45,381 bases of DNA. It comes from Planctomycetia bacterium (GTDB lineage Bacteria; Planctomycetota; UBA8108; SXIK01). Below are positions 30,835-43,387 of the stretch, piece by piece; the stretch's first letter is position 1, and each line of letters starts with the position of its first letter. Below the pieces are notes generated by a model. The model was not told the origin of the DNA. It did not search any database and worked only from the letters and a program-made list of their open reading frames with translations. Both the position numbers and the translations under genes were made by a program. The stretch is taken from contig SXIK01000045.1 of the NCBI GenBank assembly GCA_005772855.1, forward strand, positions 1-45,381, written 5' to 3'.

Positions 30835-32013
30835 TCAGATGCAGGTGGGCTCGGCGCATTCAACCATGCTTGAGTTGGAGGCTGGATGAGGGCCGCATGC
30901 CGGAAAGGGCGGCGGCGGAGGCGAGCCTCCAAAGAAGAGATATTGCAGCAGGTAGAGTGCATCGACGACCTGTCCTCCGACCTTGCCATCGCCGTCAGCG
31001 TCACATGCCGCAAGGCAAGGCGGCTTGAACCCGCCCAGGAAACTGAAGTTCAGGAGTGTGATGGCATCGGTAAGAGTTGCGGAGACTACACCATCGCCAT
31101 TGCAGTCGCCCCGCAGGAAGGCCGTGCGCTGGGGGACAGCGGTCACGAGAAGCTCGACGTCGTTTGAGCCCACCCCTGGCAGAATTCTCGATTCGCTCCC
31201 GATTCCCGAGTAGTTCACCTGCATCTGCCCGAATACTCCGTTGGGCAGGCCGGCATTGCGGGCACCGTTGTGATCGGGACGAATCCAGGCTCGCACTTCG
31301 TCCTCGATCTTCACGGGGGAGATTTCGGCGGAGCTGAACTCGCTGTAGAGCGTGAACCCGTCGTTCTCCACGACCTGACCGCGAAACCAGCCGGGGAACA
31401 GGCGGTAATCAACGTCGCTCAGGAGCACGCCCGAGCCCGTGCCCTGGCGGTACTGTCGGCTGATCGGAGGATTCGACTCGTTGGCCCCCCAATCGAGAAG
31501 ATAGTCCGGATTGCAGGGGAATAGCCGCAATTCACAGGTGTCGCCAACCTTGCTTGACTTTCCAGCGTAGAGGCTTCCCTCGAGAGCCATCTCGATCGAG
31601 GAACCAACCCGGTAGCGATCGGGAGCGGAAAAATAGAAAGCGCCAGCGAGTTTGATCGCCATTACTTTCTCAAAGATCGTGGTCGGGACCCCTGCGACTC
31701 CCGCCAACCCCTTTCCCATCACGGAGCACGAGTCCTGCGCCGGCTGAGAGCAAGATGTGGCTTCGACCGAGACGACACTCGAGGTGAAAAAAACCTCGAT
31801 CGGAACAGGAGGTCCGCTCTTTTCTTCCGGGAATCGACTGGAGCGTTCGAGAAGGAGGAAAAACCGACCCAGAGTGGCTCCAATGCCGTTCGGAAGTCCA
31901 TTACCGGCCAGTACGGGTCCCCGCGCAGTGGCCCCCCCGCTACCCTCGGCCGAAAGCCCGGCCCCCGCCAGCCCGATACATAAGAACATCGTACCTATAG
32001 CGGTAGCGTTCAT
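30835..32013 (-). CDS. Exported protein ending in two dockerin-like EF-hand loops
   Basis: The 392-residue protein starts at ATG 32013 with a GGAGAAG ribosome site and a signal peptide (MNATAIGTMFLCIGLAGAGL, cleavage after LSA). The frame is open much further upstream, but that part is unlike coding sequence. Most of the body is an unassigned beta-rich domain. Near the C-terminus two calcium-binding loops, CNGDGVVSATLTDA and DADGDGKVGGQVVDA, each followed by a leucine-rich helix, form a dockerin type I-like pair, then a Pro-rich tail. Such tails are common in exported planctomycete proteins, where the partner is mostly unknown. It diverges from the propeller lipoprotein gene. Confidence 0.75.
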   Translation of the reverse strand: MNATAIGTMFLCIGLAGAGLSAEGSGGATARGPVLAGNGLPNGIGATLGRFFLLLERSSRFPEEKSGPPVPIEVFFTSSVVSVEATSCSQPAQDSCSVMGKGLAGVAGVPTTIFEKVMAIKLAGAFYFSAPDRYRVGSSIEMALEGSLYAGKSSKVGDTCELRLFPCNPDYLLDWGANESNPPISRQYRQGTGSGVLLSDVDYRLFPGWFRGQVVENDGFTLYSEFSSAEISPVKIEDEVRAWIRPDHNGARNAGLPNGVFGQMQVNYSGIGSESRILPGVGSNDVELLVTAVPQRTAFLRGDCNGDGVVSATLTDAITLLNFSFLGGFKPPCLAACDADGDGKVGGQVVDALYLLQYLFFGGSPPPPPFPACGPHPASNSSMVECAEPTCI

Positions 32014-32257
32014 TTTCTTCTCCACGCGACCTCGAAGTAAGAAACCCTTGAACTCATCCACACGACCTACCAATTCCTCCCAGGGCTGGATTATATCCCG
32101 CACTGGGGTTCGCGCTATAATGCTTGCGCTGGAAAACTTCCCCCACACCGGCCGCCCGGCCGCGGCCCACCGGTTCCGGGCGTCAGTGTTTCCGCCTCGG
32201 TCGCCCTGCCCCCCCTTCTCGGCGCTCGACAAGCACCGGGGGCTTCCTGCGCCGAGG

Positions 32258-33682
32258 GTGCGTGAGCCCTGGTCAAGATTTCCCAAGCATGGCCGCGAGG
32301 AGTTTACCCAAAAAGTCCCGTGTTTCCTTGGCCTTGTTGTCCTGGCAGGCCTCCTCCTGGGCTGCGGCAGTGACTCCTGGTTCGGGAGTGGTCCGGGTGC
32401 TGAGGCCTCGGTCAACACACCCTCAGGTGTGCAGTCAGGTCTCGTCCGGCTCGCCTACACCCTCAAGAGCGAGGATGTCTCGACGACCGACATCCAGGTG
32501 AGCTACAGCGAGGGTGGTGGACCGTTTCGTCGGGCGACGGAGGGGGCCGGCGGCTCCGGTACGAAGAACCTTACAGTTAGCACAGCGGGCGACTCGCACA
32601 CCTTCGTCTGGGATTCAGGCGCCGACATCGAGGGCTCGAGGTCGTCCCTCGTGGTTCTCCGGGTGCAGCCGGAGAATGGAGCGGGCTCCTTCACTGGGGC
32701 GCTGAGCGTGCACAACTCCCGATTCGTTGTGGCGGCTGAGGATCGCGCCATAGGGCGTGTCCGTCTCTATCTTGCCGATGTCGTGGATGGTAGCCTGACT
32801 TTCAAGGGCTCATTCAGCACCGGCGGGACCCAGCCCCACGACGTGCTCCACGAGAGCGGGTTCTTCTTCGTCGCCCACACGAGCAGTAACAACGTCGCGG
32901 CTTTCCAGGTGGACGAAGGGACTGAATCGCTCCTCGCCGTGGAAGATTCTCCCTTCAGCGCCGATGGTGCAGGATCCAAGTACCTGGCTTCCGACGGCGA
33001 GCATGTGTTCGTCGCAAACACCGCGGGCGGTACGGTCACGGTCTTCAATCTTGCCAGTTCGGGCAAACTCACGCTGAACGTGCATTCGGGTCTCAGCGCT
33101 GCCGGATGCGGTGCCATGGTTGCGCGCTCGGGGCGGCTCTACGTGGCGAGCGAGACAACGGGGGGCATTCTGATTTTTGATATCGATACGGACGGCGAGC
33201 TGGTCGAGAATGGGTTTTCGCCGGTGATGACAGGCGGGCTTTCAAGCCCTCGGGCGCTCGTGTCGGTCGGGAGCCGTATCTACGCTGCGAACGCGTCCGC
33301 GGGCTCGATCTGTGGATTCAACTACCTCGGCGGCGGCGACCTCTCTCCTCTCGGCGGCTCACCCTTCGCGGTCAGCTCCTCGGGCATCGAGGCGCTGGCT
33401 CGCAACGGAACGAAGCTCTTCGCGGTCACGGGTGTGGGAGAGGAATTGCTTGCGCTAACGGTTGACTCCTTCGGCGCTCTCACCGAGGACTCCGCTTCCC
33501 CGTTTGTGCTCGGGGGACCTGCCTTCACGGTTGTCACAGCGGGAAGCATCGCATTTGCGGCCACGACGACCTCCAAGGAAATAGAGTCGTTGACGATCAA
33601 CGAGCTGGGAGTGGTGGAGGTCTCCGGCTCAAGCCCCGAGGGCGTCGGCGTGGAGATCGTGCGCATGGCCCTCTCGGACTGA
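32258..33682 (+). CDS. Beta-propeller lipoprotein (YVTN/lactonase-like repeats)
   Basis: The product (474 residues from the GTG at 32258) has a lipoprotein signal with the lipobox LLLGC. After an Ig-like N-terminal stretch, repeated units with the pattern ...G.R.YVAS..(G)..FD...DGEL follow, for example GRLYVASETTGGILIFDID and SRIYAANASAGSICGFNYL, spaced by about 45-50 residues, which fits a seven-bladed YVTN/lactonase-like beta-propeller. The start is not certain: another frame from ATG 32289 (MAARSLPKKSRVSLALL) gives a more typical n-region and would join the lipobox after a one-base shift near 32335. A surface-exposed or periplasmic binding role is likely; enzyme activity is not claimed. 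Confidence 0.7.
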   Translation: MREPWSRFPKHGREEFTQKVPCFLGLVVLAGLLLGCGSDSWFGSGPGAEASVNTPSGVQSGLVRLAYTLKSEDVSTTDIQVSYSEGGGPFRRATEGAGGSGTKNLTVSTAGDSHTFVWDSGADIEGSRSSLVVLRVQPENGAGSFTGALSVHNSRFVVAAEDRAIGRVRLYLADVVDGSLTFKGSFSTGGTQPHDVLHESGFFFVAHTSSNNVAAFQVDEGTESLLAVEDSPFSADGAGSKYLASDGEHVFVANTAGGTVTVFNLASSGKLTLNVHSGLSAAGCGAMVARSGRLYVASETTGGILIFDIDTDGELVENGFSPVMTGGLSSPRALVSVGSRIYAANASAGSICGFNYLGGGDLSPLGGSPFAVSSSGIEALARNGTKLFAVTGVGEELLALTVDSFGALTEDSASPFVLGGPAFTVVTAGSIAFAATTTSKEIESLTINELGVVEVSGSSPEGVGVEIVRMALSD

Positions 33683-33732: not shown

Positions 33733-34443
33733 ATGAAGCCAATTGCCGGGAGATCCGTCACGTTCGTTACCTGCGTCGCTGATTTGGCAAGGTATCAACG
33801 ACTGCGATTGAGCCTTGAATTGCTGCGGAATGGAGCTCTCGCTGTCGAGAGCGATCCGGTCGAAAACCTGTCCAACCGCTACACGGCAGCGCAAGCCCTG
33901 AATATCGGCTGGAACAGAGCCCGATCGGACATCGTCGTATTCTGCCACGATGATGTGATTTTCCCACCGGCCTGGCTGGAGCATCTGCAGTCAATGATCG
34001 CTGTGGTCGAAGAAGCTCCGGGTGAAGCTCCCTGGGCGGTACTTGGGCCCATGGGCCGTCGGGGTAAACAGTTCTTCGGTCGGGCCTCCGGGCAAAACGG
34101 TGCCGAGTCCTTTTTTGGTCCGCTTCCAGCCCGGGTGGAGACTCTCGACGAGCTTTGCCTCATCGTCCCCCGGAACCTTCCGCTTCGATTCGATGAGGGA
34201 CTCGGCGGCTTCCACCTCTACGGAGTAGATCTCTGTATTCAGGCTGCCGAGGCAGGCTTTTCATGCTTTGCGATCGATGCGCGCTGCCAGCATGATTCCG
34301 AGACCCGCCATCGCCCCCCCGAATATCACGCCGTCAAGCGCAGGCTCCAGCGGAAGTGGATGTTCCGACGCCGCAACATTGGACGGTCCGTCGGGACAAC
34401 TTGCGGCCGAATTCGCTTCGGGCTATTCGAGGGTTGGATCTAG
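33733..34443 (+). CDS. Glycosyltransferase-like protein (GT-A fold, Glyco_tranf_2_5 type)
   Basis: The 236-residue protein begins SVTFVTCVADLARYQRL and has DIVVFCHDDVIFPPAWLEHL, with HDD in the place of the DXD metal site, followed by FDEGLGGFHLYGVDLCIQA. This is the pattern of the small glycosyltransferase-like family that includes Pfam Glyco_tranf_2_5. The substrate is unknown. Its TAG stop and the TAG stop of convergent fabI share the palindrome CTAG (34440-34443), so the two genes overlap by four bases. Confidence 0.7.
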   Translation: MKPIAGRSVTFVTCVADLARYQRLRLSLELLRNGALAVESDPVENLSNRYTAAQALNIGWNRARSDIVVFCHDDVIFPPAWLEHLQSMIAVVEEAPGEAPWAVLGPMGRRGKQFFGRASGQNGAESFFGPLPARVETLDELCLIVPRNLPLRFDEGLGGFHLYGVDLCIQAAEAGFSCFAIDARCQHDSETRHRPPEYHAVKRRLQRKWMFRRRNIGRSVGTTCGRIRFGLFEGWI

Positions 34444-35216
34444 ATGCCCACAATGTTGTATCCGCAATCCACGTAAATCACCTCGCCGGTAATGCCGCTG
34501 GAAAGTGGGCTCAAGAGGAAAACGGAAGCGTTGGCGACTTCTTCAATCTCGACGTTGCGCTGGAGCGGCGCCTTGTGGGCAACATGGTCCAGGATTTCCG
34601 TGAAACCCGAGATTCCACGGGCTGCGAGGGTGTTGACGGGTCCAGCGCTCACGGCGTTCACGCGGATCTGGCGTGCGCCCAAGTCGACTGCGAGATAGCG
34701 CACGGAGGCCTCGAGAGCCGCCTTGGCGACGCCCATTACGTTGTAGTTCTTCACAGCCCGCTCACTTCCCAGGTAGGTGAGGGTGATAATGCTGCCGCCC
34801 TGGCTCATGAGAGGCGCAACCATGCGGGAGAGGGCCGTCAGCGAGTAGCTGCTAACATCCTGAGCCAGGAGGTAGCCCTTGCGGGAAGTGTCGAGGAATA
34901 TGCCCTCGAGGTCTTTACGGTCGGCAAAAGCGATCGAGTGGACGAGGAAGTCGACGCTGCCCAGGTCTTGCCTCAGATTTTCCTGCAGCCGGGCGAGGTC
35001 GTCGTCGGAGGTCACGTCGCAGGGGTAAACCGGAGATGTGCCTGGCAGCGTCTTTACGAGCTCCTCAACCTTCTCCTTGATCTTTTCGCCCTGATAAGTG
35101 AAGGCCAGGGTCGCTCCGGCATCGCTCGAAGCTTTTGCTATCGCCCAGGCGATGCTTCGCTTGTTGGCAACCCCCAAAATGATGCCCTTCTTTCCCTCCA
35201 GCATGCGCATGGTCAT
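34440..35216 (-). CDS. fabI: Enoyl-ACP reductase FabI
   Basis: The 258-residue SDR-type reductase completes each round of fatty-acid elongation by reducing enoyl-ACP with NAD(P)H. GKKGIILGVANKRSIAWAIA is the FabI cofactor-binding start; Tyr148, Tyr158 and Lys165 (in YNVMGVAKAALE) are the catalytic set, and VNAVSAGPVNTLAARGI is the family's substrate-loop segment. I use ATG 35216 with GGAGAG upstream; other ATGs at 35210 and 35204 are possible. The gene is not part of the PKS-like cluster 15 kb away, so a housekeeping role is likely. It diverges from argB. Confidence 0.92.
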   Translation of the reverse strand: MTMRMLEGKKGIILGVANKRSIAWAIAKASSDAGATLAFTYQGEKIKEKVEELVKTLPGTSPVYPCDVTSDDDLARLQENLRQDLGSVDFLVHSIAFADRKDLEGIFLDTSRKGYLLAQDVSSYSLTALSRMVAPLMSQGGSIITLTYLGSERAVKNYNVMGVAKAALEASVRYLAVDLGARQIRVNAVSAGPVNTLAARGISGFTEILDHVAHKAPLQRNVEIEEVANASVFLLSPLSSGITGEVIYVDCGYNIVGI

Positions 35217-35342
35217 CGTCGTGGTGCTCTCCGGGTCTTGGGTCGGTTGTTGCAGTGCGCCGGAATTGTAGTCGAACGGCGTGGGAGAGCAAGCAAAGGC
35301 GATGCCCGGGTGGAGCGCGGCATTTTTCCATTGCCCCGGCCG

Positions 35343-35369
35343 CGAGAACCCTATAGGTTCTCGGTTTTT
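35343..35369 (+). terminator. Terminator-like hairpin in the argB leader region
   Basis: CGAGAACC at 35343-35350 pairs with its exact complement at 35356-35363 around a CTATA loop and is followed by G and five T. No plus-strand gene ends here, so it would act inside a leader upstream of argB or end a short RNA. It is the first of several stem-loops in 35343-35513. Confidence 0.55.
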
Positions 35370-35482
35370 CAGGAGCTCAGTTGATTCCGCTCGTCGAACA
35401 GCGCAAGTGCCCGCGCCGGTTTCTTGCGTGGGAGGACTTCGTGGCGCTGGTGCCACACACAACGCTGTGCAACGAAACGCCA

Positions 35483-35525
35483 CCCACGCGCGGGCTCGGC
35501 CATGCGCCGTGGGTTTCTTGTTTTG
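35483..35525 (+). terminator. Second terminator-like hairpin, 35 bases before argB
   Basis: CCCACGCGC (35483-35491) pairs with GCGC and GTGGG (35504-35513, one bulged C), followed by TTTCTTGTTTTG. Between the two hairpins lie further inverted repeats (CGCAAG/CTTGCG and TGGCGC/GTGCCA around 35402-35456). Together they look like an attenuator-type leader of the arginine operon; no leader peptide rich in Arg codons is obvious. Confidence 0.45.
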
Positions 35526-35559: not shown

Positions 35560-36477
35560 GTGGAAGATCTCAGCCTTCTCAAACAAGCCCTTCCGTACAT
35601 CAAACGATACCGAAACAAGATTTTCGTGATCAAGTTTGGCGGCGAGGTCGTGTGCGACACGAAACGCATGGACAACCTGGCGGCTGACATTTCCCTTCTT
35701 TACGAGTTGAATGTGCGGATGGTCATCATTCACGGAGGCGGGCCGCAGGCGACGGAGCTGGCGGGAAGGCTCGGGATCGAGACGGAGAAGGTGGAGGGAC
35801 GGCGAATCACGGACGACCGCATGCTCGAGGTCGCGAAGATGGTCTTTGCTGGAAAGATCTCAACCGACATCCTCTCGGCCCTGAGGCGTAATGACACCCC
35901 AGGGATCGGCCTCTCGGGCGTCGATGGCAACCTCATTGATGCCGTGCGCCGGCCGCCGCAGACGTATGTGGACGAGGCCACAGGGGAGTCGAAGCAGGTC
36001 GACTTCCAAAACGTGGGTGACATCCGAAATGTCAATACCGACGTGCTCCGTGTGCTGCTCGAGAACCGCTTCGTTCCAGTCGTTGCCTCGCTCGGTGCCG
36101 ACCAGAACGGCCGAGTTCTCAACATCAACGCCGACACCATAGCCGCAGAGATCGCAGGCGCCCTTCCCGCCGAGAAGCTCTGCCTGTTTTCGAATGTGAA
36201 CGGAATCTTGAGGGACGTGAATGACCCGACAAGCCGCTATTCGTATATCACTGTCGATGCGGTCGAGGATCTGATCCGCAAGAAGGCCATCTCTGGAGGC
36301 ATGATCCCGAAGGTCAAGGCGGCGATGCGGGCTGTGCGAAAGGGCGTGAAACGCGTCCACATCATGAGCGGACTGGAAGAGAATGCGCTCCTCTACGAGG
36401 TCTTCACAGTGAAGGGCCTCGGGACCATGGTGCTCGACCAACAGGAAGAGGCCGAGTACCTCGAGGAGCAAGGCTGA
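35560..36477 (+). CDS. argB: N-acetyl(or N-succinyl)glutamate kinase ArgB
   Basis: The 305-residue amino-acid kinase phosphorylates the acylated glutamate, step two of arginine synthesis. FVIKFGGEVV, IIHGGGPQATEL and ALGADQNG-like ASLGADQNGRVLNINADTIA are the nucleotide and substrate motifs, and GGMIPKVKAAMRAV is the kinase signature near the end. I use the GTG at 35560 (EDLSLLKQALPYIKRY); no better start or strong ribosome site is seen. The N-terminal helix preceding KIFVIKFGG is of the kind found in arginine-sensitive enzymes. It is the first gene of a seven-gene operon. Because the last gene appears specific for succinyl-ornithine, this kinase may act on N-succinylglutamate. Confidence 0.9.
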   Translation: MEDLSLLKQALPYIKRYRNKIFVIKFGGEVVCDTKRMDNLAADISLLYELNVRMVIIHGGGPQATELAGRLGIETEKVEGRRITDDRMLEVAKMVFAGKISTDILSALRRNDTPGIGLSGVDGNLIDAVRRPPQTYVDEATGESKQVDFQNVGDIRNVNTDVLRVLLENRFVPVVASLGADQNGRVLNINADTIAAEIAGALPAEKLCLFSNVNGILRDVNDPTSRYSYITVDAVEDLIRKKAISGGMIPKVKAAMRAVRKGVKRVHIMSGLEENALLYEVFTVKGLGTMVLDQQEEAEYLEEQG

Positions 36478-36489
36478 GGAGCTCCCGGC

Positions 36490-37866
36490 ATGCGAAGCGG
36501 CCGATTCAAAAAAGACTTGAGCGACGCGATGCGCGCGTTGAACGCGTCGATCGACTTCGATCGGAGGCTCTACGCCGAGGACATCGATGGAAGCCTCGCC
36601 TGGGCCGAGGCCTTGCGAGCCCGTGGGATCATCTCCCTGGAAGAGGAGCAGAGAATCCGGGACGGGCTCGAGAAGATTCGCGAGGAGATCGACTCCGGCC
36701 GATTCCATTTCTCGCAAGAGCTCGAGGACGTTCACATGAACGTGGAGTCGCGGCTCACCGCGCTCACGGGTGCCGCAGGCGAGAGGCTTCATACAGGCCG
36801 CAGCCGGAACGACCAGGTCGCAACGGATTTTCGTCTGCACCTGAAGCGAGCCGCCCATGCTGCTTTCGACAGCGTGACGGAGCTCATCAGCGCGATGACC
36901 GGCGCTGCCGAGCGCTTTGTTGACATCGTGATCCCGGCGTATACTCACCTCCAGCGGGCGCAGCCAGTGCTCCTGGCGCATCACCTGTTGGCCTACGCGG
37001 AGATGCTTCTGCGCGATCGCGATCGGTTCCTGTGGGCTGCGGATCAGGCAGATGCGTGCCCGTTGGGTTCGGGTGCTTGCGCCGGCAACCAGTTTGGCGT
37101 TGATCGTGAGCTGTTGCGGCGGAAGCTCGGGTTCTCGCGACTCACGCACAACTCCATGGATGCCGTGAGCGACCGCGACTTCGCGTGTGACTTTCTTCAT
37201 GCCGCGACGCTATTGCTCGTCCACCTCTCGCGGCTAAGCGAGGACCTCATTCTTTGGACCTCCACGGAGTTTGGCCTTGTCGTCCTCGACGATTCCGTGA
37301 CAACCGGAAGCTCCATGCTGCCGCAGAAGAAGAACCCGGATGCCTGCGAGCTTGGCCGTGGCAAGGTGGGCCGCGTAGTTGGCAACTATGTCTCACTCGT
37401 GACCACGCTCAAGGGGCTTCCGCTTACCTACAACAAGGACTTGCAAGAGGACAAGGAGGCAGTCTTCGACTCCATCGACACGCTCAATAGCCTTCTCCCA
37501 GTCTTCAAGCTGATGGTGGAGACACTGCAAGTTCGGCAGGATCGCGCCGAGGCGCTCCTTCAGGGCGGTTTCCTCGAGGCGATCAGCGTCGCTGACTACC
37601 TCACGCGCAAGGGAGTCCCTTTTCGGGAGGCTCATCGAATTGCCGGCAAGGCCGTGCGTCGGGCGGAGGCACTCCAGGTTTCTCTCCCGGAGCTCGGCCT
37701 CGAGGAGTACATGGCTCTCGATGCTCGGTTCGGGTCTGATTTGTTCGAGGCGATCTCGATAAAGGGCGCCCTGGCGGACAAGGATGTCGTGGGGGGCACC
37801 GCGCCCCGGCGAGTGCATGAGGAAATCGATCGACTCAAGAAGCTGCTCGCGGCTGAGCGGGAGTAA
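36490..37866 (+). CDS. argH: Argininosuccinate lyase
   Basis: The 458-residue enzyme splits argininosuccinate into arginine and fumarate. It belongs to the fumarase/aspartase superfamily; the signature GSSMLPQKKNPDACELGRGK is intact, as are HTGRSRNDQVATDFRLHLK and TPAYTHLQRAQPV-like IVIPAYTHLQRAQPVLLAHH. A GGAG site lies eight bases ahead of the ATG. It is 12 bases downstream of argB and 15 bases upstream of argG, so these are co-transcribed. Confidence 0.95.
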   Translation: MRSGRFKKDLSDAMRALNASIDFDRRLYAEDIDGSLAWAEALRARGIISLEEEQRIRDGLEKIREEIDSGRFHFSQELEDVHMNVESRLTALTGAAGERLHTGRSRNDQVATDFRLHLKRAAHAAFDSVTELISAMTGAAERFVDIVIPAYTHLQRAQPVLLAHHLLAYAEMLLRDRDRFLWAADQADACPLGSGACAGNQFGVDRELLRRKLGFSRLTHNSMDAVSDRDFACDFLHAATLLLVHLSRLSEDLILWTSTEFGLVVLDDSVTTGSSMLPQKKNPDACELGRGKVGRVVGNYVSLVTTLKGLPLTYNKDLQEDKEAVFDSIDTLNSLLPVFKLMVETLQVRQDRAEALLQGGFLEAISVADYLTRKGVPFREAHRIAGKAVRRAEALQVSLPELGLEEYMALDARFGSDLFEAISIKGALADKDVVGGTAPRRVHEEIDRLKKLLAAERE

Positions 37867-37881
37867 GGAAAAGATAACGCC

Positions 37882-39102
37882 GTGACCAACCAACCCAAAG
37901 TAGTTCTCGCCTTCTCCGGAGGGCTCGACACTTCCTACTGCGTCCCTTACCTCAAGGAGAGGAAGGGATATGACGTCATTACTGTCACCGTGGACACAGG
38001 CGGGTTTACTCCCGGTGAGGTGAAGGCGATCGAGGAACGAGCGCGATCCCTCGGTGTCCTTCAACACTACACGGTGGACGCAAGGGCACGGGTCTTCGAT
38101 CGGTACGCTTCCTATCTCATCAAGGGCAACGTGCTCAGGGGAGATGTCTATCCCCTCTCTGTCGCTGCAGAGCGGGTCGCGCAGGCCGAGTCCGTGGCGG
38201 AGGTCGCCCTGAGGGATCGCGCCCAGGCTGTCGCGCACGGATCGACAGGCGCTGGCAACGACCAGGTGCGCTTTGACATCGCCTTTGGTGTGCTCTTGCC
38301 CGGCGTACCGGTCCTGACGCCGATTCGAGACGAAAAACTCACCCGTGAGGAGGAGTACGCGTTCCTCGAGAGCCGGGGCATCAAGATGGATCGCAAGGTG
38401 CGGGAGTTTTCCATCAACGCGGGGCTTTGGGGCGCCACCATCGGGGGAGGCATCACTCACGACAGCTGGAAAGAGATCCCACAGGAAGTTTACGACCAGG
38501 CCGCTGGCGGCGAGAGAGTCTCCACGAGCGAGCACGTCACGATCGGCTACGAACGAGGCATCCCGACTTCACTGAACGGAAAGAGGCTGCACGGCGTCGA
38601 GATCGTTCGAGACCTGGGCGTAGCTTGTCGGAGGCACCGAGTCGGCTTCGGTGTCCACATCGGAGACACCGTTCTTGGCATCAAGGGCCGAATCGCCTTC
38701 GAGGCCGGCGCCGCCCTTGTTCTCATCCAGGCTCACCGTGAGCTCGAGAAGATCGTTACCACCTCCTGGCAAAGGTTCTGGAAGGACCACTTGGGCGAGT
38801 TCTACGGCAAGATGCTGCACGAGGGGCACTTTTTTGACCCGGCCCTGCGAGACATTGAGGCCATGATCGACAGCTCTCAGGATCACGTGACGGGCGAAGC
38901 CAAGGTGCGGCTCGATTCGGGATCCGCCTCCGTGGTGGGGGTCCGTAGCCCTTTCACGATGGCGGGTTCAGCATCTGGCGTCTATGGCGAGATGCCGAAA
39001 CTCTGGAGTGGTTCCGATGTGCGGGGCTTCAGCACGATCGCAGCTATTCCCTCGAGGCTCTACCGGCAGGCGGGCGATGGCGAATCGCAGAGATCCCAAT
39101 GA
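37882..39102 (+). CDS. argG: Argininosuccinate synthase
   Basis: The 406-residue enzyme joins citrulline and aspartate with ATP. The PP-loop AFSGGLDTSY at the N-terminus, GSTGAGNDQVRF and SINAGLWG in the middle are characteristic. It uses a GTG start. Its TGA overlaps the ATG of the unknown P-loop gene (ATGA), which suggests translational coupling of that gene to arginine synthesis. Confidence 0.95.
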   Translation: MTNQPKVVLAFSGGLDTSYCVPYLKERKGYDVITVTVDTGGFTPGEVKAIEERARSLGVLQHYTVDARARVFDRYASYLIKGNVLRGDVYPLSVAAERVAQAESVAEVALRDRAQAVAHGSTGAGNDQVRFDIAFGVLLPGVPVLTPIRDEKLTREEEYAFLESRGIKMDRKVREFSINAGLWGATIGGGITHDSWKEIPQEVYDQAAGGERVSTSEHVTIGYERGIPTSLNGKRLHGVEIVRDLGVACRRHRVGFGVHIGDTVLGIKGRIAFEAGAALVLIQAHRELEKIVTTSWQRFWKDHLGEFYGKMLHEGHFFDPALRDIEAMIDSSQDHVTGEAKVRLDSGSASVVGVRSPFTMAGSASGVYGEMPKLWSGSDVRGFSTIAAIPSRLYRQAGDGESQRSQ

Positions 39103-40148
39103 AGGCCAGAGTCCACAAGATTGCCTCGGTTGTTTACCGCCTGGGCTTCGAGAAAGAGGTCGAGATCACGCGGAAGATGGAGGCCCGGTCCGGAAACACG
39201 ATCGTCGTGCGTGCGCTCACGGAGAAGCGAATTTACAGTGAGCTCGAGCTCGAGAGCGGGCGCATGTCGAAGATCTTCACGGGAGATGTGATTCTTGGCG
39301 CTCTGGGAAGGCGGCGGGCGCTGCGAGGTTTTTCGGGCGATGTGCCCTCGAGGGTTCGGCCTGGAGACATCGTCCAGCTGCTCAACAAGGGTGGGGTAAT
39401 TGGAGCGAGCACTTCCGACCACAAGGACTTCGGCCAGCCCTTGAGCTGCGAAGTGCTTGGAATGCCAGTGCGGAACGGAGCGATCGTACGCATCGCCGAC
39501 GCAAGTATCCCGGAAGTGAAATCTCTCTCCGGCCTCACTTTGCCGCCGGTGGCAATCGTGTCGGCCACCTGCATGGATTCTGGCAAGACGCTGTTTCTGA
39601 GTGAGGTCGTTCAAGAGCTGTCGAAGGACGGCCTCCGCATTGCGGGAGGAAAGCTCACAGGAATCGCTTGCCGGCGAGACCTGATCGACATGGAGGATCA
39701 CGGGGCGATCGCGACCTCGTCGTTTCTTGACGCTGGCTACACCTCGACGGCCGGGCTCAACGCCGAGACGCTCGTCACTGTCGCAAAAAGCGTCATTGCC
39801 CATCTCGCATCTGCCAGGGCGGACGTGATCTTCCTTGAGCTGGGTGACGGCGTGATTGGTGAATATGGAGTCCTCGAGATCTTGAAGGACCCCGAGATCC
39901 GCGCCAGCATCCGTTTGCACGCTTTCTGTGCCGGGGACATGGTTGGCGCCTGGGGCGGACAGCGATTTCTTTCGGAACATGGCGTCGAGATCGACCTCTT
40001 TTCCGGCCCCGTGACGGACAATGATGTTGGTGTCGAGTACCTGGAGAAACAATTCAAGAGGCGAGCGATTAACGCCCACCGAAATCCGGAGGCGCTGGCG
40101 GAGGCCGTGTTGGATCACATGGGGATCAAGGCCCCCAAGCCAGTGTGA
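39099..40148 (+). CDS. Unknown P-loop protein embedded in the arginine operon
   Basis: The 349-residue product has two parts. Residues about 1-145 look like beta-rich folds (GDVILGALGRRRALRGFSGD and RPGDIVQLLNKGGVIGAS). Residues about 150-345 hold an NTPase-like core with a Walker A variant SATCMDSGKT at 155-164 and a hydrophobic strand ending in acidic residues (ADVIFLELGDGVIGEYG) like a Walker B. It somewhat recalls MobB/CobB-type and DUF1611-type P-loop proteins, but I do not recognise it as an arginine enzyme. It starts inside the argG stop codon and ends seven bases before argC. A missing step in the pathway (acyl transfer, deacylation, ligation or regulation) is possible. Confidence 0.8.
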   Translation: MKARVHKIASVVYRLGFEKEVEITRKMEARSGNTIVVRALTEKRIYSELELESGRMSKIFTGDVILGALGRRRALRGFSGDVPSRVRPGDIVQLLNKGGVIGASTSDHKDFGQPLSCEVLGMPVRNGAIVRIADASIPEVKSLSGLTLPPVAIVSATCMDSGKTLFLSEVVQELSKDGLRIAGGKLTGIACRRDLIDMEDHGAIATSSFLDAGYTSTAGLNAETLVTVAKSVIAHLASARADVIFLELGDGVIGEYGVLEILKDPEIRASIRLHAFCAGDMVGAWGGQRFLSEHGVEIDLFSGPVTDNDVGVEYLEKQFKRRAINAHRNPEALAEAVLDHMGIKAPKPV

Positions 40149-40154
40149 GGTCCA

Positions 40155-41201
40155 GTGAGCATGAGCACTGTAAAGACAGCGGGTGTTGGGGTGATCGGCG
40201 GATCGGGTTACATCGGTGCCGAATTGCTTCGCTACTTGGCGATTCATCCGCAGGTAGATGTGCGTTGGGTGACGGCCAACACCAAGGTCGGCGAGGAGAT
40301 CGCGAATATGCTGCCGAATCTCCGCGGATTCGTTCAGGGCGTGTTTGTCTCGAACGACGAGGCTGTGCATCGACTCGACGAGACCGCCGCCGTGTTCGTG
40401 GCTTTGCCTCACAACGAGTCGCAGACGGTTATCCCGCGCCTTGCCGAGAAGGCGCCGGGCACCGTGTTCATTGACCTGGGCGGCGACTTCCGCACGAATG
40501 ATCCTGTGGGTTACAAGAAATATTACGGTGCCGATCATGCGGCTACCCCGTGGCTGCCGCGCTTCGTCTATGGATTCACCGAGTACCGCCGGGATGTGCT
40601 CCGCGGGGCGCGTTTCATCGCGACCCCAGGCTGCTTCGCGACGACAATAAACCTTGCGCTTGCGCCCCTCGCCGCGGTCGGGAAGTTGCGGGGCAAGGTC
40701 TTCGTCACCGGCATTACGGGCTCGTCGGGCTCGGGCATCAAGCCGGTGCAGACGACGCACCATCCCGAACGTGCCATGAACGTGCGCTCGTACAAGCCTC
40801 TCCAGCATCAGCATCTTCTCGAAGTCGAGGCCTTCTTGCGCACACTTACAAGGGAGGCCATCAGCATCCAGTTCGTTCCGCAGTCCGGGCCATTCGTGCG
40901 AGGCATCTTCGTCACGGCCTTCGTACCCGGGACGGGCGTTGACGAGCTGGAGCAGATTTTTGGGGAGGCGTATGGTGGAAATGATCTCGTGTCGGTGATG
41001 CGAGGCTCGCCCGAGTTGCGCTGGGTACAGGGCACGCCGCGTGCCGTGATCGGCGTGGACGGGACTTCTCGAGACGGGGTCGTATTCAGCGTCACCGATA
41101 ACCTTGGAAAAGGCGGGCCGGGTCAGGCGATCCAGAACATGAATCTCGCGCTCGGATTCCCCGAGACCGAAGGCCTGAGGTTGCCAGGAGGGTTTGTATG
41201 A
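40155..41201 (+). CDS. argC: N-acyl-gamma-glutamyl-phosphate reductase
   Basis: The 348-residue NADPH-dependent dehydrogenase makes the glutamate semialdehyde. GVGVIGGSGYIGAELLRYL is the dinucleotide-binding start, PGCFATTINLAL holds the catalytic Cys, and HHPERAMNVRSYKPLQHQH contains the general-base His region. The start is GTG 40155 (or ATG 40161); GAGG at 40146-40149 fits either. The gene follows the P-loop gene and overlaps argD by four bases (ATGA). The relative LysY of the AAA lysine pathway is a less likely alternative given the operon. Confidence 0.9.
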   Translation: MSMSTVKTAGVGVIGGSGYIGAELLRYLAIHPQVDVRWVTANTKVGEEIANMLPNLRGFVQGVFVSNDEAVHRLDETAAVFVALPHNESQTVIPRLAEKAPGTVFIDLGGDFRTNDPVGYKKYYGADHAATPWLPRFVYGFTEYRRDVLRGARFIATPGCFATTINLALAPLAAVGKLRGKVFVTGITGSSGSGIKPVQTTHHPERAMNVRSYKPLQHQHLLEVEAFLRTLTREAISIQFVPQSGPFVRGIFVTAFVPGTGVDELEQIFGEAYGGNDLVSVMRGSPELRWVQGTPRAVIGVDGTSRDGVVFSVTDNLGKGGPGQAIQNMNLALGFPETEGLRLPGGFV

Positions 41202-42373
41202 ATACCCGTGAGATCGAGGACAGGTACACGCTCGCCACCTATCCAAAATTTCCCTTCGCACTGGTGCGAGGGGTGGGTTCGTATGTCTTTGACGACTCCG
41301 AGAAGCGCTACCTCGACCTCTACGGCGGCCATGCGGTCTCGAGCCTCGGCCACTCGCACCCCAGGTGGGTCGAGGCCATTGCGAAACAAGCATCGACACT
41401 CGATTTCTACTCGAACATTTGCTACTCCCCTGTTCGGGCCGAGGCGGCCGAGAGGGTCGTGCGCAACAGCTACTCTTCGATGACCGGCGTGTACTTCTGC
41501 AACTCCGGCGCCGAGGCGAACGAGACGGCGCTGAAGATCGCCCGCAAACTCACGAAGCGGCCGCACGTCGTTGCGATGTTGGATGGCTTCCATGGGCGGA
41601 CAATTGCGGCCCTGAGTGTGACGGGTGTGCAGAAGATGCGCGACGCCTTTCCGGAAAGCCTCGATCGGCTCACGCGATGGGTCCCGATGGCGTCACTTGG
41701 CGCGATCGAAGCTGTTGAGCCGTCGCAAATAGCGGCAGTCATCCTCGAGCCGATTTTGAGCCTGGGCGGTGTCCGCATGGGAAATCCGGAGTATTACCAG
41801 GGCCTCAGACGATGGTGCACGCGCAACGGAGTGGCCTTGATCTTCGATGAGGTCCAGACCGGAAACGGAAGGACCGGTAAGTGGTTCGTGGGACAGCACT
41901 GGGGGGTGGAGCCCGATATCGTCACGACAGCGAAGGCGATTGGGGGCGGCTTCCCTGTTGGCGCCGTCATCGCGAACGCGTGGGTGGCGGCGGACGTCAA
42001 GTCCGGTGACCAGGGCAGCACGTTCGGGGGCGCTCCGATGGCAGCCGCTGCCGTGGCGGCAACGTATCGTGTGATAGAGGAAGAGGGGCTCGTCGATCAT
42101 GTTGCTCGCAGGTCCACCCGAGTCATCGCCCGGCTCCGGGAGCTGATGGGGCCCGGGCGTATTCGGGATGTTCGCGGGCTTGGCTATCTGCTCGGCATCG
42201 AGTGTGATCTGCCAGGCAAGGAGATACAGTCCCGCCTCTTGAAGGAAGGTGTGCTCGTTGGCATATCCAACCACGCCAACACGATCCGCCTTCTCCCGCC
42301 GCTGACGGTCAGCGATGCCGAGTGGGACTCCTTCCTCGCCACGTTCGAGAAGGTCTTGACTTCAAGCAACTGA
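41198..42373 (+). CDS. argD: Acetylornithine/succinylornithine-type aminotransferase
   Basis: The 391-residue class III, PLP-dependent aminotransferase carries NSGAEANETALKIAR (phosphate-binding) and FDEVQTGNGRTG (Asp of the PLP ring). The Schiff-base lysine is in VTTAKAIGGGFPVGA. It converts N-acyl-glutamate semialdehyde to N-acyl-ornithine with glutamate. Position between argC and the transcarbamylase supports arginine synthesis. Whether it prefers acetyl or succinyl forms cannot be told, as this enzyme class often accepts both. Confidence 0.92.
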   Translation: MNTREIEDRYTLATYPKFPFALVRGVGSYVFDDSEKRYLDLYGGHAVSSLGHSHPRWVEAIAKQASTLDFYSNICYSPVRAEAAERVVRNSYSSMTGVYFCNSGAEANETALKIARKLTKRPHVVAMLDGFHGRTIAALSVTGVQKMRDAFPESLDRLTRWVPMASLGAIEAVEPSQIAAVILEPILSLGGVRMGNPEYYQGLRRWCTRNGVALIFDEVQTGNGRTGKWFVGQHWGVEPDIVTTAKAIGGGFPVGAVIANAWVAADVKSGDQGSTFGGAPMAAAAVAATYRVIEEEGLVDHVARRSTRVIARLRELMGPGRIRDVRGLGYLLGIECDLPGKEIQSRLLKEGVLVGISNHANTIRLLPPLTVSDAEWDSFLATFEKVLTSSN

Positions 42374-42394: not shown

Positions 42395-43387
42395 ATGCGT
42401 CACTTCTATAGCCTCAATGAATTTTCACCGGAGCAGATCGAGCAGTTTCTTTCCCGAGCCTTATTCCACAAGGGGAATCCCTACTTCCCGACGTTGGCGA
42501 AGAAACAATTCGCGCTTCTGTTTCTGGACCCGTCGCTCCGTACCCGTTGCTCCTTCGAGGTGGCCATCCGGCAGCTTTCAGGGGGCGTGACGACTCTCGA
42601 GGGGCAGAGCCTCTGGAAAATAGAGACCGAGTTGGGCGTGAAGATGGACCAGGACAAGAGCGAGCACGTCCGCGAGGCGATGGGCGTCCTCTCGAGGTAC
42701 TTCGACGGTCTGGGCCTTCGATCCTTCGCCCGGGGTGTCCGTCGAGAGGAGGACCTTCTCGACCAGACGTTCAGCGCGTTCGTCGAGAGTGCCAAGATTC
42801 CCGTCTTCAACATGGAGTCGGCTGTTTATCACCCCTGCCAGACGCTGGCAGATCTCCTGACGATCAAGGAGCTATTCGGCGGCTTCTTGGGCAAGAAGAT
42901 CTCGATCGTCTGGGCCAGCCACCCGAGAGCGTTGCCCATGGCCGTGCCGAATTCGATCCTCCTTGGAACGACGCTGATGGGCATGGACGTGACGTTGGCT
43001 CACCCGAAGGGATTTGAGCTGCAGGATGGGATCATGGCCATGGCGAACGACTTCTCCAGGAGGTCCGGCGGGAACCTTCGAGTCGTGCACGATCGGGCAG
43101 AGGCCGCACGCGACACGGAGATCGTATATGCCAAGGCCTGGGGCGGCCTTGCTCGTTATTCGGACCCCGAGTCCGAGGCGAAGCAGCGGCTCCAGCACTC
43201 GAACTGGATTGTTGACACTCCCTTCATGGACATGACGCGCCGGGCGGCTTTCATGCACTGCCTGCCTGTTCGGCGCAATGTGGTTGTCCGCGATGAGGTG
43301 ATCGACTCGAAGCAGTCGGTGATCTTTCGCCAGGCGGAGAACCGCCTGCACGCCCAGAAGGCGATTCTCGAGTGGGTCTACTCGTGA
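42395..43387 (+). CDS. N-acyl-L-ornithine carbamoyltransferase, probably N-succinyl type
   Basis: The 330-residue protein is a transcarbamylase of the acetyl/succinyl-ornithine branch, not the ordinary OTCase. DPSLRTRCSFE replaces the STRTR carbamoyl-phosphate loop, HPCQTLADL and ASHPRALPMAVPNS are present, and FMHCLPVRRNV is the end motif of that branch. The stretch MDQDKSEHV places Ser89 at the position equivalent to Glu92 of Xanthomonas N-acetylornithine and Pro90 of Bacteroides N-succinylornithine transcarbamylase. From published mutagenesis as I recall it, changing that Glu to Pro, Ser, Ala or Val gives succinyl-ornithine activity, so Ser89 predicts the succinyl substrate. The 3' end overlaps the convergent HMG-CoA lyase by ten bases. 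Confidence 0.85.
   Translation: MRHFYSLNEFSPEQIEQFLSRALFHKGNPYFPTLAKKQFALLFLDPSLRTRCSFEVAIRQLSGGVTTLEGQSLWKIETELGVKMDQDKSEHVREAMGVLSRYFDGLGLRSFARGVRREEDLLDQTFSAFVESAKIPVFNMESAVYHPCQTLADLLTIKELFGGFLGKKISIVWASHPRALPMAVPNSILLGTTLMGMDVTLAHPKGFELQDGIMAMANDFSRRSGGNLRVVHDRAEAARDTEIVYAKAWGGLARYSDPESEAKQRLQHSNWIVDTPFMDMTRRAAFMHCLPVRRNVVVRDEVIDSKQSVIFRQAENRLHAQKAILEWVYS

Follow-up and report, generated by a model that had tools for sequence, protein, structure and literature searches.

An uncharacterized gene between argG and argC in a planctomycete arginine operon, here called gene X, likely encodes a non-orthologous N-acyl-L-glutamate synthase, probably succinylating, that would carry out the first committed step of arginine biosynthesis. 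Sequence shows that the gene exists, where it lies in the operon, that it co-occurs with the transcarbamylase gene argF' and that it and ArgJ or the ArgA acetyltransferase domain exclude one another; the reaction is inferred, and there is no biochemical evidence for it. The window, by which we mean the whole stretch of DNA analyzed, is 45,381 nucleotides of a Planctomycetia bacterium (contig SXIK01000045.1), and its operon runs argB-argH-argG-X-argC-argD-argF', with the following features:

35560..36477, + strand: argB, acylglutamate kinase (start codon inferred from homologues)
36490..37866, + strand: argH, argininosuccinate lyase
37882..39102, + strand: argG, argininosuccinate synthase, with an ATGA overlap with the start of X
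39099..40148, + strand: gene X, P-loop protein of no named family, 349 aa, ATG start, proposed N-acyl-L-glutamate synthase
39099..39539, + strand: N-terminal all-beta domain of X, residues 1-147
39540..40145, + strand: C-terminal SIMIBI-class P-loop domain of X
39561..39590, + strand: Walker A stretch of X, coding for SATCMDSGKT
40155..41201, + strand: argC, N-acyl-gamma-glutamyl-phosphate reductase
41198..42373, + strand: argD, acylornithine aminotransferase
42395..43387, + strand: argF', N-acylornithine transcarbamylase (NF003384 over cut-off)

The ATG of X (39099-39101) overlaps the TGA of argG (39100-39102) as ATGA, and about 6 nt separate its stop codon from the start of argC. Homologues were found in 19 of 59 related genomes, counting its own, at identities of 75, 65, 55 and so on down to 38%, and the differences from the 75% homologue are richest at the third codon position (0.21/0.12/0.49 for the three positions). 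Because the homologues are conserved and the differences pile up at third positions, we take X to be a real gene, under purifying selection and conserved in planctomycetes. An antisense ORF spanning X and argC (39060-41399, - strand, 779 aa) was treated as a high-GC artefact. Elsewhere in the window, a fabI-like enoyl-ACP reductase gene (34440-35483) is divergent from the arg operon and is the same neighbour in two related genomes (G002, G004), and a gene at 30835-32418 (- strand) encodes a protein with dockerin-like repeats at its C-terminus.

A preliminary description of the locus had reported a 349-residue protein with the sequence SATCMDSGKT and a beta-rich N-terminal half, lying between argG and argC and starting within the argG stop codon, all of which held. 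It had also reported an operon without argA or argJ, a deacylase or a carbamoyl-phosphate synthase. This held for the operon, inside which none of the four was found, but CarA and M20 hydrolases are encoded elsewhere in the genome; ArgJ and the ArgA acetyltransferase domain were not found anywhere in it. Of the roles suggested there for X (filling a missing arginine step, regulation, or action as a ligase), the missing-role part is supported and points to the N-acylglutamate synthase step, which is favored because of gene order, co-occurrence with argF' and the exclusion of ArgJ and ArgA.

The usual order around X homologues is argG-X-argC, with arg genes adjoining X in nearly all cases; across 29 loci of a wider sample, argG lies directly 5' of X in most and argC comes next in most. 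Seven genomes from six families (G054, G041, G031, G043, G052, G057 and G076) carry argG-X-argC-argD-argF'-argB-M20-argH on one strand, so that eight genes stand against eight acyl-pathway steps and seven of them are recognized, the identity of the M20 protein resting on Pfam for three proteins and on likeness for the remainder. We matched X to the N-acylglutamate synthase step because it is the sole unassigned gene, and this the sole unfilled step, in that operon. The acyl group would be retained through carbamoylation, with the pathway proceeding through X, argB, argC, argD, argF', the deacylase, argG and argH. In the window's order the deacylase is not part of the operon, and none of the six M20 hydrolases encoded in the genome proved to be closely orthologous to the operon-type M20, which counts against the synthase reading.

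One could instead suppose that X is the source of carbamoyl phosphate or the deacylase, as both functions are missing from the window's operon. We regard this as very unlikely and have set both roles aside: CarA was found in 14 of the 15 genomes tested, the window's own included, which makes X unnecessary as a source of carbamoyl phosphate, and the related operons have an M20 deacylase alongside X.

We searched 156 planctomycete genomes, each at least 90% complete, for X, ArgJ, acylornithine transcarbamylase and ArgA. Full-length X was present in 43 of them, representing 23 families. ArgJ was found in none of these 43, as against 74 of the 113 genomes without X (Fisher p 8e-16, uncorrected for phylogeny), whereas 42 of the 43 had a match over cut-off to NF003384, as against 15 of the 113 others (p 4e-24, shared descent ignored); the lone X genome without one (G117) had only a low-scoring match. 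ArgJ also occurs in 23 families, two of which hold both X-type and ArgJ-type genomes, yet no genome has both. The ArgA acetyltransferase domain (TIGR01890, E<=1e-10) was absent from all 43 X genomes, where matches to this model covered only the kinase part, in argB or a kinase-like paralogue; ArgJ genomes commonly have a second TIGR01890 match, and many of those listed cover the acetyltransferase part (about 280-411). Relaxing the threshold to E<=1 brought in weak GNAT matches in some X genomes but none in the window's genome. X itself matched neither a GNAT acetyltransferase domain (TIGR01890/PF00583) nor PF01960 (ArgJ). The exclusion covers ArgJ and the ArgA domain; the Bacteroidetes-type ArgA2 GNAT was not searched for specifically. 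In one genome (G033), X is found apart from the arg operon.

A further alternative is that X makes another N-modified glutamate or an arginine-linked product, with N-acylglutamate coming from an unrecognized GNAT elsewhere. The window's genome does encode four PF00583 GNATs, whose unassigned roles also tell against the synthase reading, and relatives of X occur in different contexts, namely a Priestia plasmid cluster and Rhodobacterales units composed of an alpha/beta hydrolase, an X-like protein and an ABC transporter. Against this, none of the arg loci read showed a GNAT, and X tightly excludes ArgJ and the ArgA domain, so that we consider this alternative unlikely.

The main evidence against the synthase reading is the inferred loss of X from one genus, here g3, with the operon kept. 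X is absent from all five g3 genomes (G002, G004, G006, G008 and G009), the chance of its having been missed in all five through incompleteness being 3e-4, and two of them (G002 and G004) keep argB-H-G-C-D-F' intact, with X cleanly missing between argG and argC (L074 8865-8884; L075 9099-9118). No ArgJ, ArgA domain or obvious substitute for X was found in g3, and the source of N-acylglutamate there has not been identified; a search for a replacement returned only two PF00583 GNATs, one of RimJ/RimL-type appearance and one a general GNAT of 158 aa. In several planctomycetes, g3 included, a DUF1611 (dgcN-like) gene adjoins an enolase-superfamily (dgcA-like) gene (L086 1096-3152, L087 1081-3152, L088, L089, L091). 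Such a pair could in principle supply N-acetyl-L-glutamate, which we mention only as a possibility, but X-bearing relatives of g3 share the pair.

The persistence of the g3 operon without X also supports a reading of X as an ATPase that regulates or assists the arg operon (a sensor, assembly or channelling factor) and is not a pathway enzyme, as does the occurrence of maturation and targeting factors among SIMIBI proteins, HypB and FtsY being two that were matched structurally (see below). This reading seems to us improbable: under it, 43 genomes from 23 families would have nothing to carry out the first step and the ArgJ exclusion would go unexplained, and X shows neither a recognizable DNA-binding domain nor a set of invariant Cys/His residues that could transfer metal. 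A HypB-like metallochaperone role in particular was disfavored, as X lacks conserved metal ligands.

Returning to X as a synthase, the likely acyl group can be read from the specificity site of argF'. The window's argF' has Ser where the Xanthomonas AOTCase has Glu92, and all X-linked argF' proteins examined have S, A or T at the equivalent site, never E. Ser, Pro, Ala or Val at the Glu92 site goes with a preference for N-succinyl substrates (PMC7311316, citing Shi et al. 2007); Thr is absent from that list. Because argF' carries S, A or T here, we predict that the X-type pathway likely uses succinylated intermediates, as in Bacteroidetes, an inference from sequence alone. Five other genomes (G110, G138, G103, G146 and G177; L077-L081) have acylornithine-type transcarbamylase genes that stand away from the rest of the arg genes and code for Q, P or A at the specificity site.

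The AlphaFold model of X (pLDDT 94.5, pTM 0.92) divides into an N-terminal half rich in beta structure and a P-loop half of alpha/beta type. Conserved in the N-terminal domain are K43, Y46, E50, G54-R55, R72 and an LN-GG(V)-G motif. The landmarks of the C-terminal domain are the Walker A motif at about residues 156-164 (K163, T164), K185, D194, D200, E247-x-G-D-G and D280, and the family consensus for Walker A is GTCMNSGKT, followed by the invariant Lys185. A match to a known unrelated family, which the preliminary description had considered, was not found over cut-off in Pfam, NCBIfam or, by sequence, the PDB. MobB (PF03205) reached 14.9 bits against a gathering score of 26.6, over the P-loop portion only, and so did not meet the test. 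The N-terminal beta domain modelled alone had no PDB fold match at E<=0.001, and Foldseek returned no full-length match to X among the structures listed; the C-terminal half matched BioD (TMt 0.59), HypB (TMt 0.58) and FtsY.

Profile alignment of the C-terminal half with BioD (hhalign) gave a probability of 78 and an E of 1.8e-5. K163, K185 and E247, invariant in the 19 members, align with the Walker Lys, the second Lys and the Glu of the EGxGG motif (EGAGG) of BioD, so that our residue test was met. The resemblance is only moderate, which counts against the synthase reading, and the BioD model TIGR00347 matched 4 of the 19 members (best E 0.015) without meeting its cut-off. BioD and its relatives CobB/CobQ use ATP to activate a carboxylate or carbamate, after which an amide-type bond is made. 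By analogy, X would activate succinate with ATP to an acyl phosphate, which the alpha-amino group of glutamate would attack to form the amide, making X an ATP-dependent amide ligase; BioD-type chemistry on succinate and glutamate would yield N-succinylglutamate. If X is the synthase, we lean modestly toward such ligase chemistry, an inference drawn because the P-loop half is most BioD-like and keeps the key BioD residues, and lean slightly away from the use of succinyl-CoA. The bolder proposal, of an N-succinyl-L-glutamate ligase that depends on ATP and not on CoA, in which BioD-like chemistry was recruited together with a beta domain of unmatched fold to open the arginine pathway across many planctomycete families, remains tentative, and we would not at present wager on it.

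Within the synthase reading, X could also be an acyl-CoA:L-glutamate N-acyltransferase that works like the DUF1611 protein DgcN, the P-loop serving to bind the nucleotide part of CoA. In its favor, DUF1611 (PF07755) matched 9 of the 19 members weakly, with a best E of 0.0018 and without reaching the gathering score, and DgcN is a D-glutamate N-acetyltransferase, its chemistry being the N-acylation of glutamate. Against it, the N-terminal domain and motifs differ, BioD fits better, and profile comparison with DUF1611 gave a non-significant probability of 1.7-2.5%, over the P-loop only. Membership of X in the DUF1611/DgcN family, our first idea from the weak Pfam matches, was rejected on that comparison; acyltransferase chemistry as such remains a less likely possibility.

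More distant relatives of X, about 25-30% identical to it, are carried by plasmids of Priestia, Paracoccus and Tritonibacter, and one planctomycete genome has such a relative as its second copy (G031; hhalign 99.9). They can be aligned over nearly their full length, have neighbours other than arginine operons and are without the residues specific to the arginine-linked group. In the tree, a supported branch (97/96) sets the 19 arginine-linked sequences, among which the branching of near relatives follows the kinship of the organisms, apart from the X-like relatives; the exact position of the Priestia protein is unsure because of long branches. Scattering of homologues outside arg operons, a prospect also raised in the preliminary description, is therefore partly observed, in relatives that fall outside the arginine-linked group. 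A single-sequence scan of genome contigs with X found one near relative only, and outside Planctomycetota just plasmids were covered. The Priestia megaterium plasmid (L111 4730-13418) combines an OTCase, two ATP-grasp ligases, TPP enzymes, the X-like protein, an M20 peptidase and a PEP mutase family protein, and may be a natural product cluster, perhaps for a phosphonate. Other distant X-like proteins adjoin an ABC transporter (L040 7741-10635; L112 7063-10468; L113 7027-10534), and in Rhodobacterales plasmids an alpha/beta hydrolase as well; these ABC-transporter-linked proteins carry the annotation dethiobiotin synthase or DUF1611.

The committed step that makes N-acylglutamate is textbook biochemistry, and non-homologous enzymes for it are known (ArgA/NAGS, ArgJ); non-orthologous replacements of ArgA (ArgA2, ArgA3) have been proposed before (PMC9026213). 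In the literature searched, no paper linked an X-type protein to arginine. If our reading is correct, X would be a further unrelated enzyme for this step, one without a family model, and would account for the seeming gaps in arginine synthesis in a sizeable fraction of Planctomycetota (43/156 sampled genomes). The succinyl-type pathway would then extend beyond Bacteroidetes, with a first step possibly driven by ATP instead of CoA, and the wider unnamed P-loop family would gain its first function.

Among known systems, BioD (AAA_26/CbiA group) shares with X a SIMIBI P-loop domain, a GTxxxxGKT-type Walker A, an E-x-G-x-G type motif and the second Lys (K185 in X, Lys37/38 in BioD). Unlike BioD, X carries about 147 additional N-terminal residues that form a beta domain, and its gene belongs to arg operons and not to bio operons; X also scores far short of any BioD model. 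DUF1611/DgcN-like proteins (PF07755; PDB 2obn, 7xrj, 2g0t) are also P-loop proteins of similar length but differ from X in N-terminal domain and motifs, and some genomes carry both kinds. ArgJ (ornithine acetyltransferase) likewise makes N-acetylglutamate and is non-homologous to X. ArgA (NAGS) and the ArgA2 GNAT proteins proposed for the first arginine step in Bacteroidetes (PMC9026213) share the step proposed for X but have the GNAT fold and are non-homologous to it, and ArgA2, like X, goes with an acyl-type transcarbamylase.
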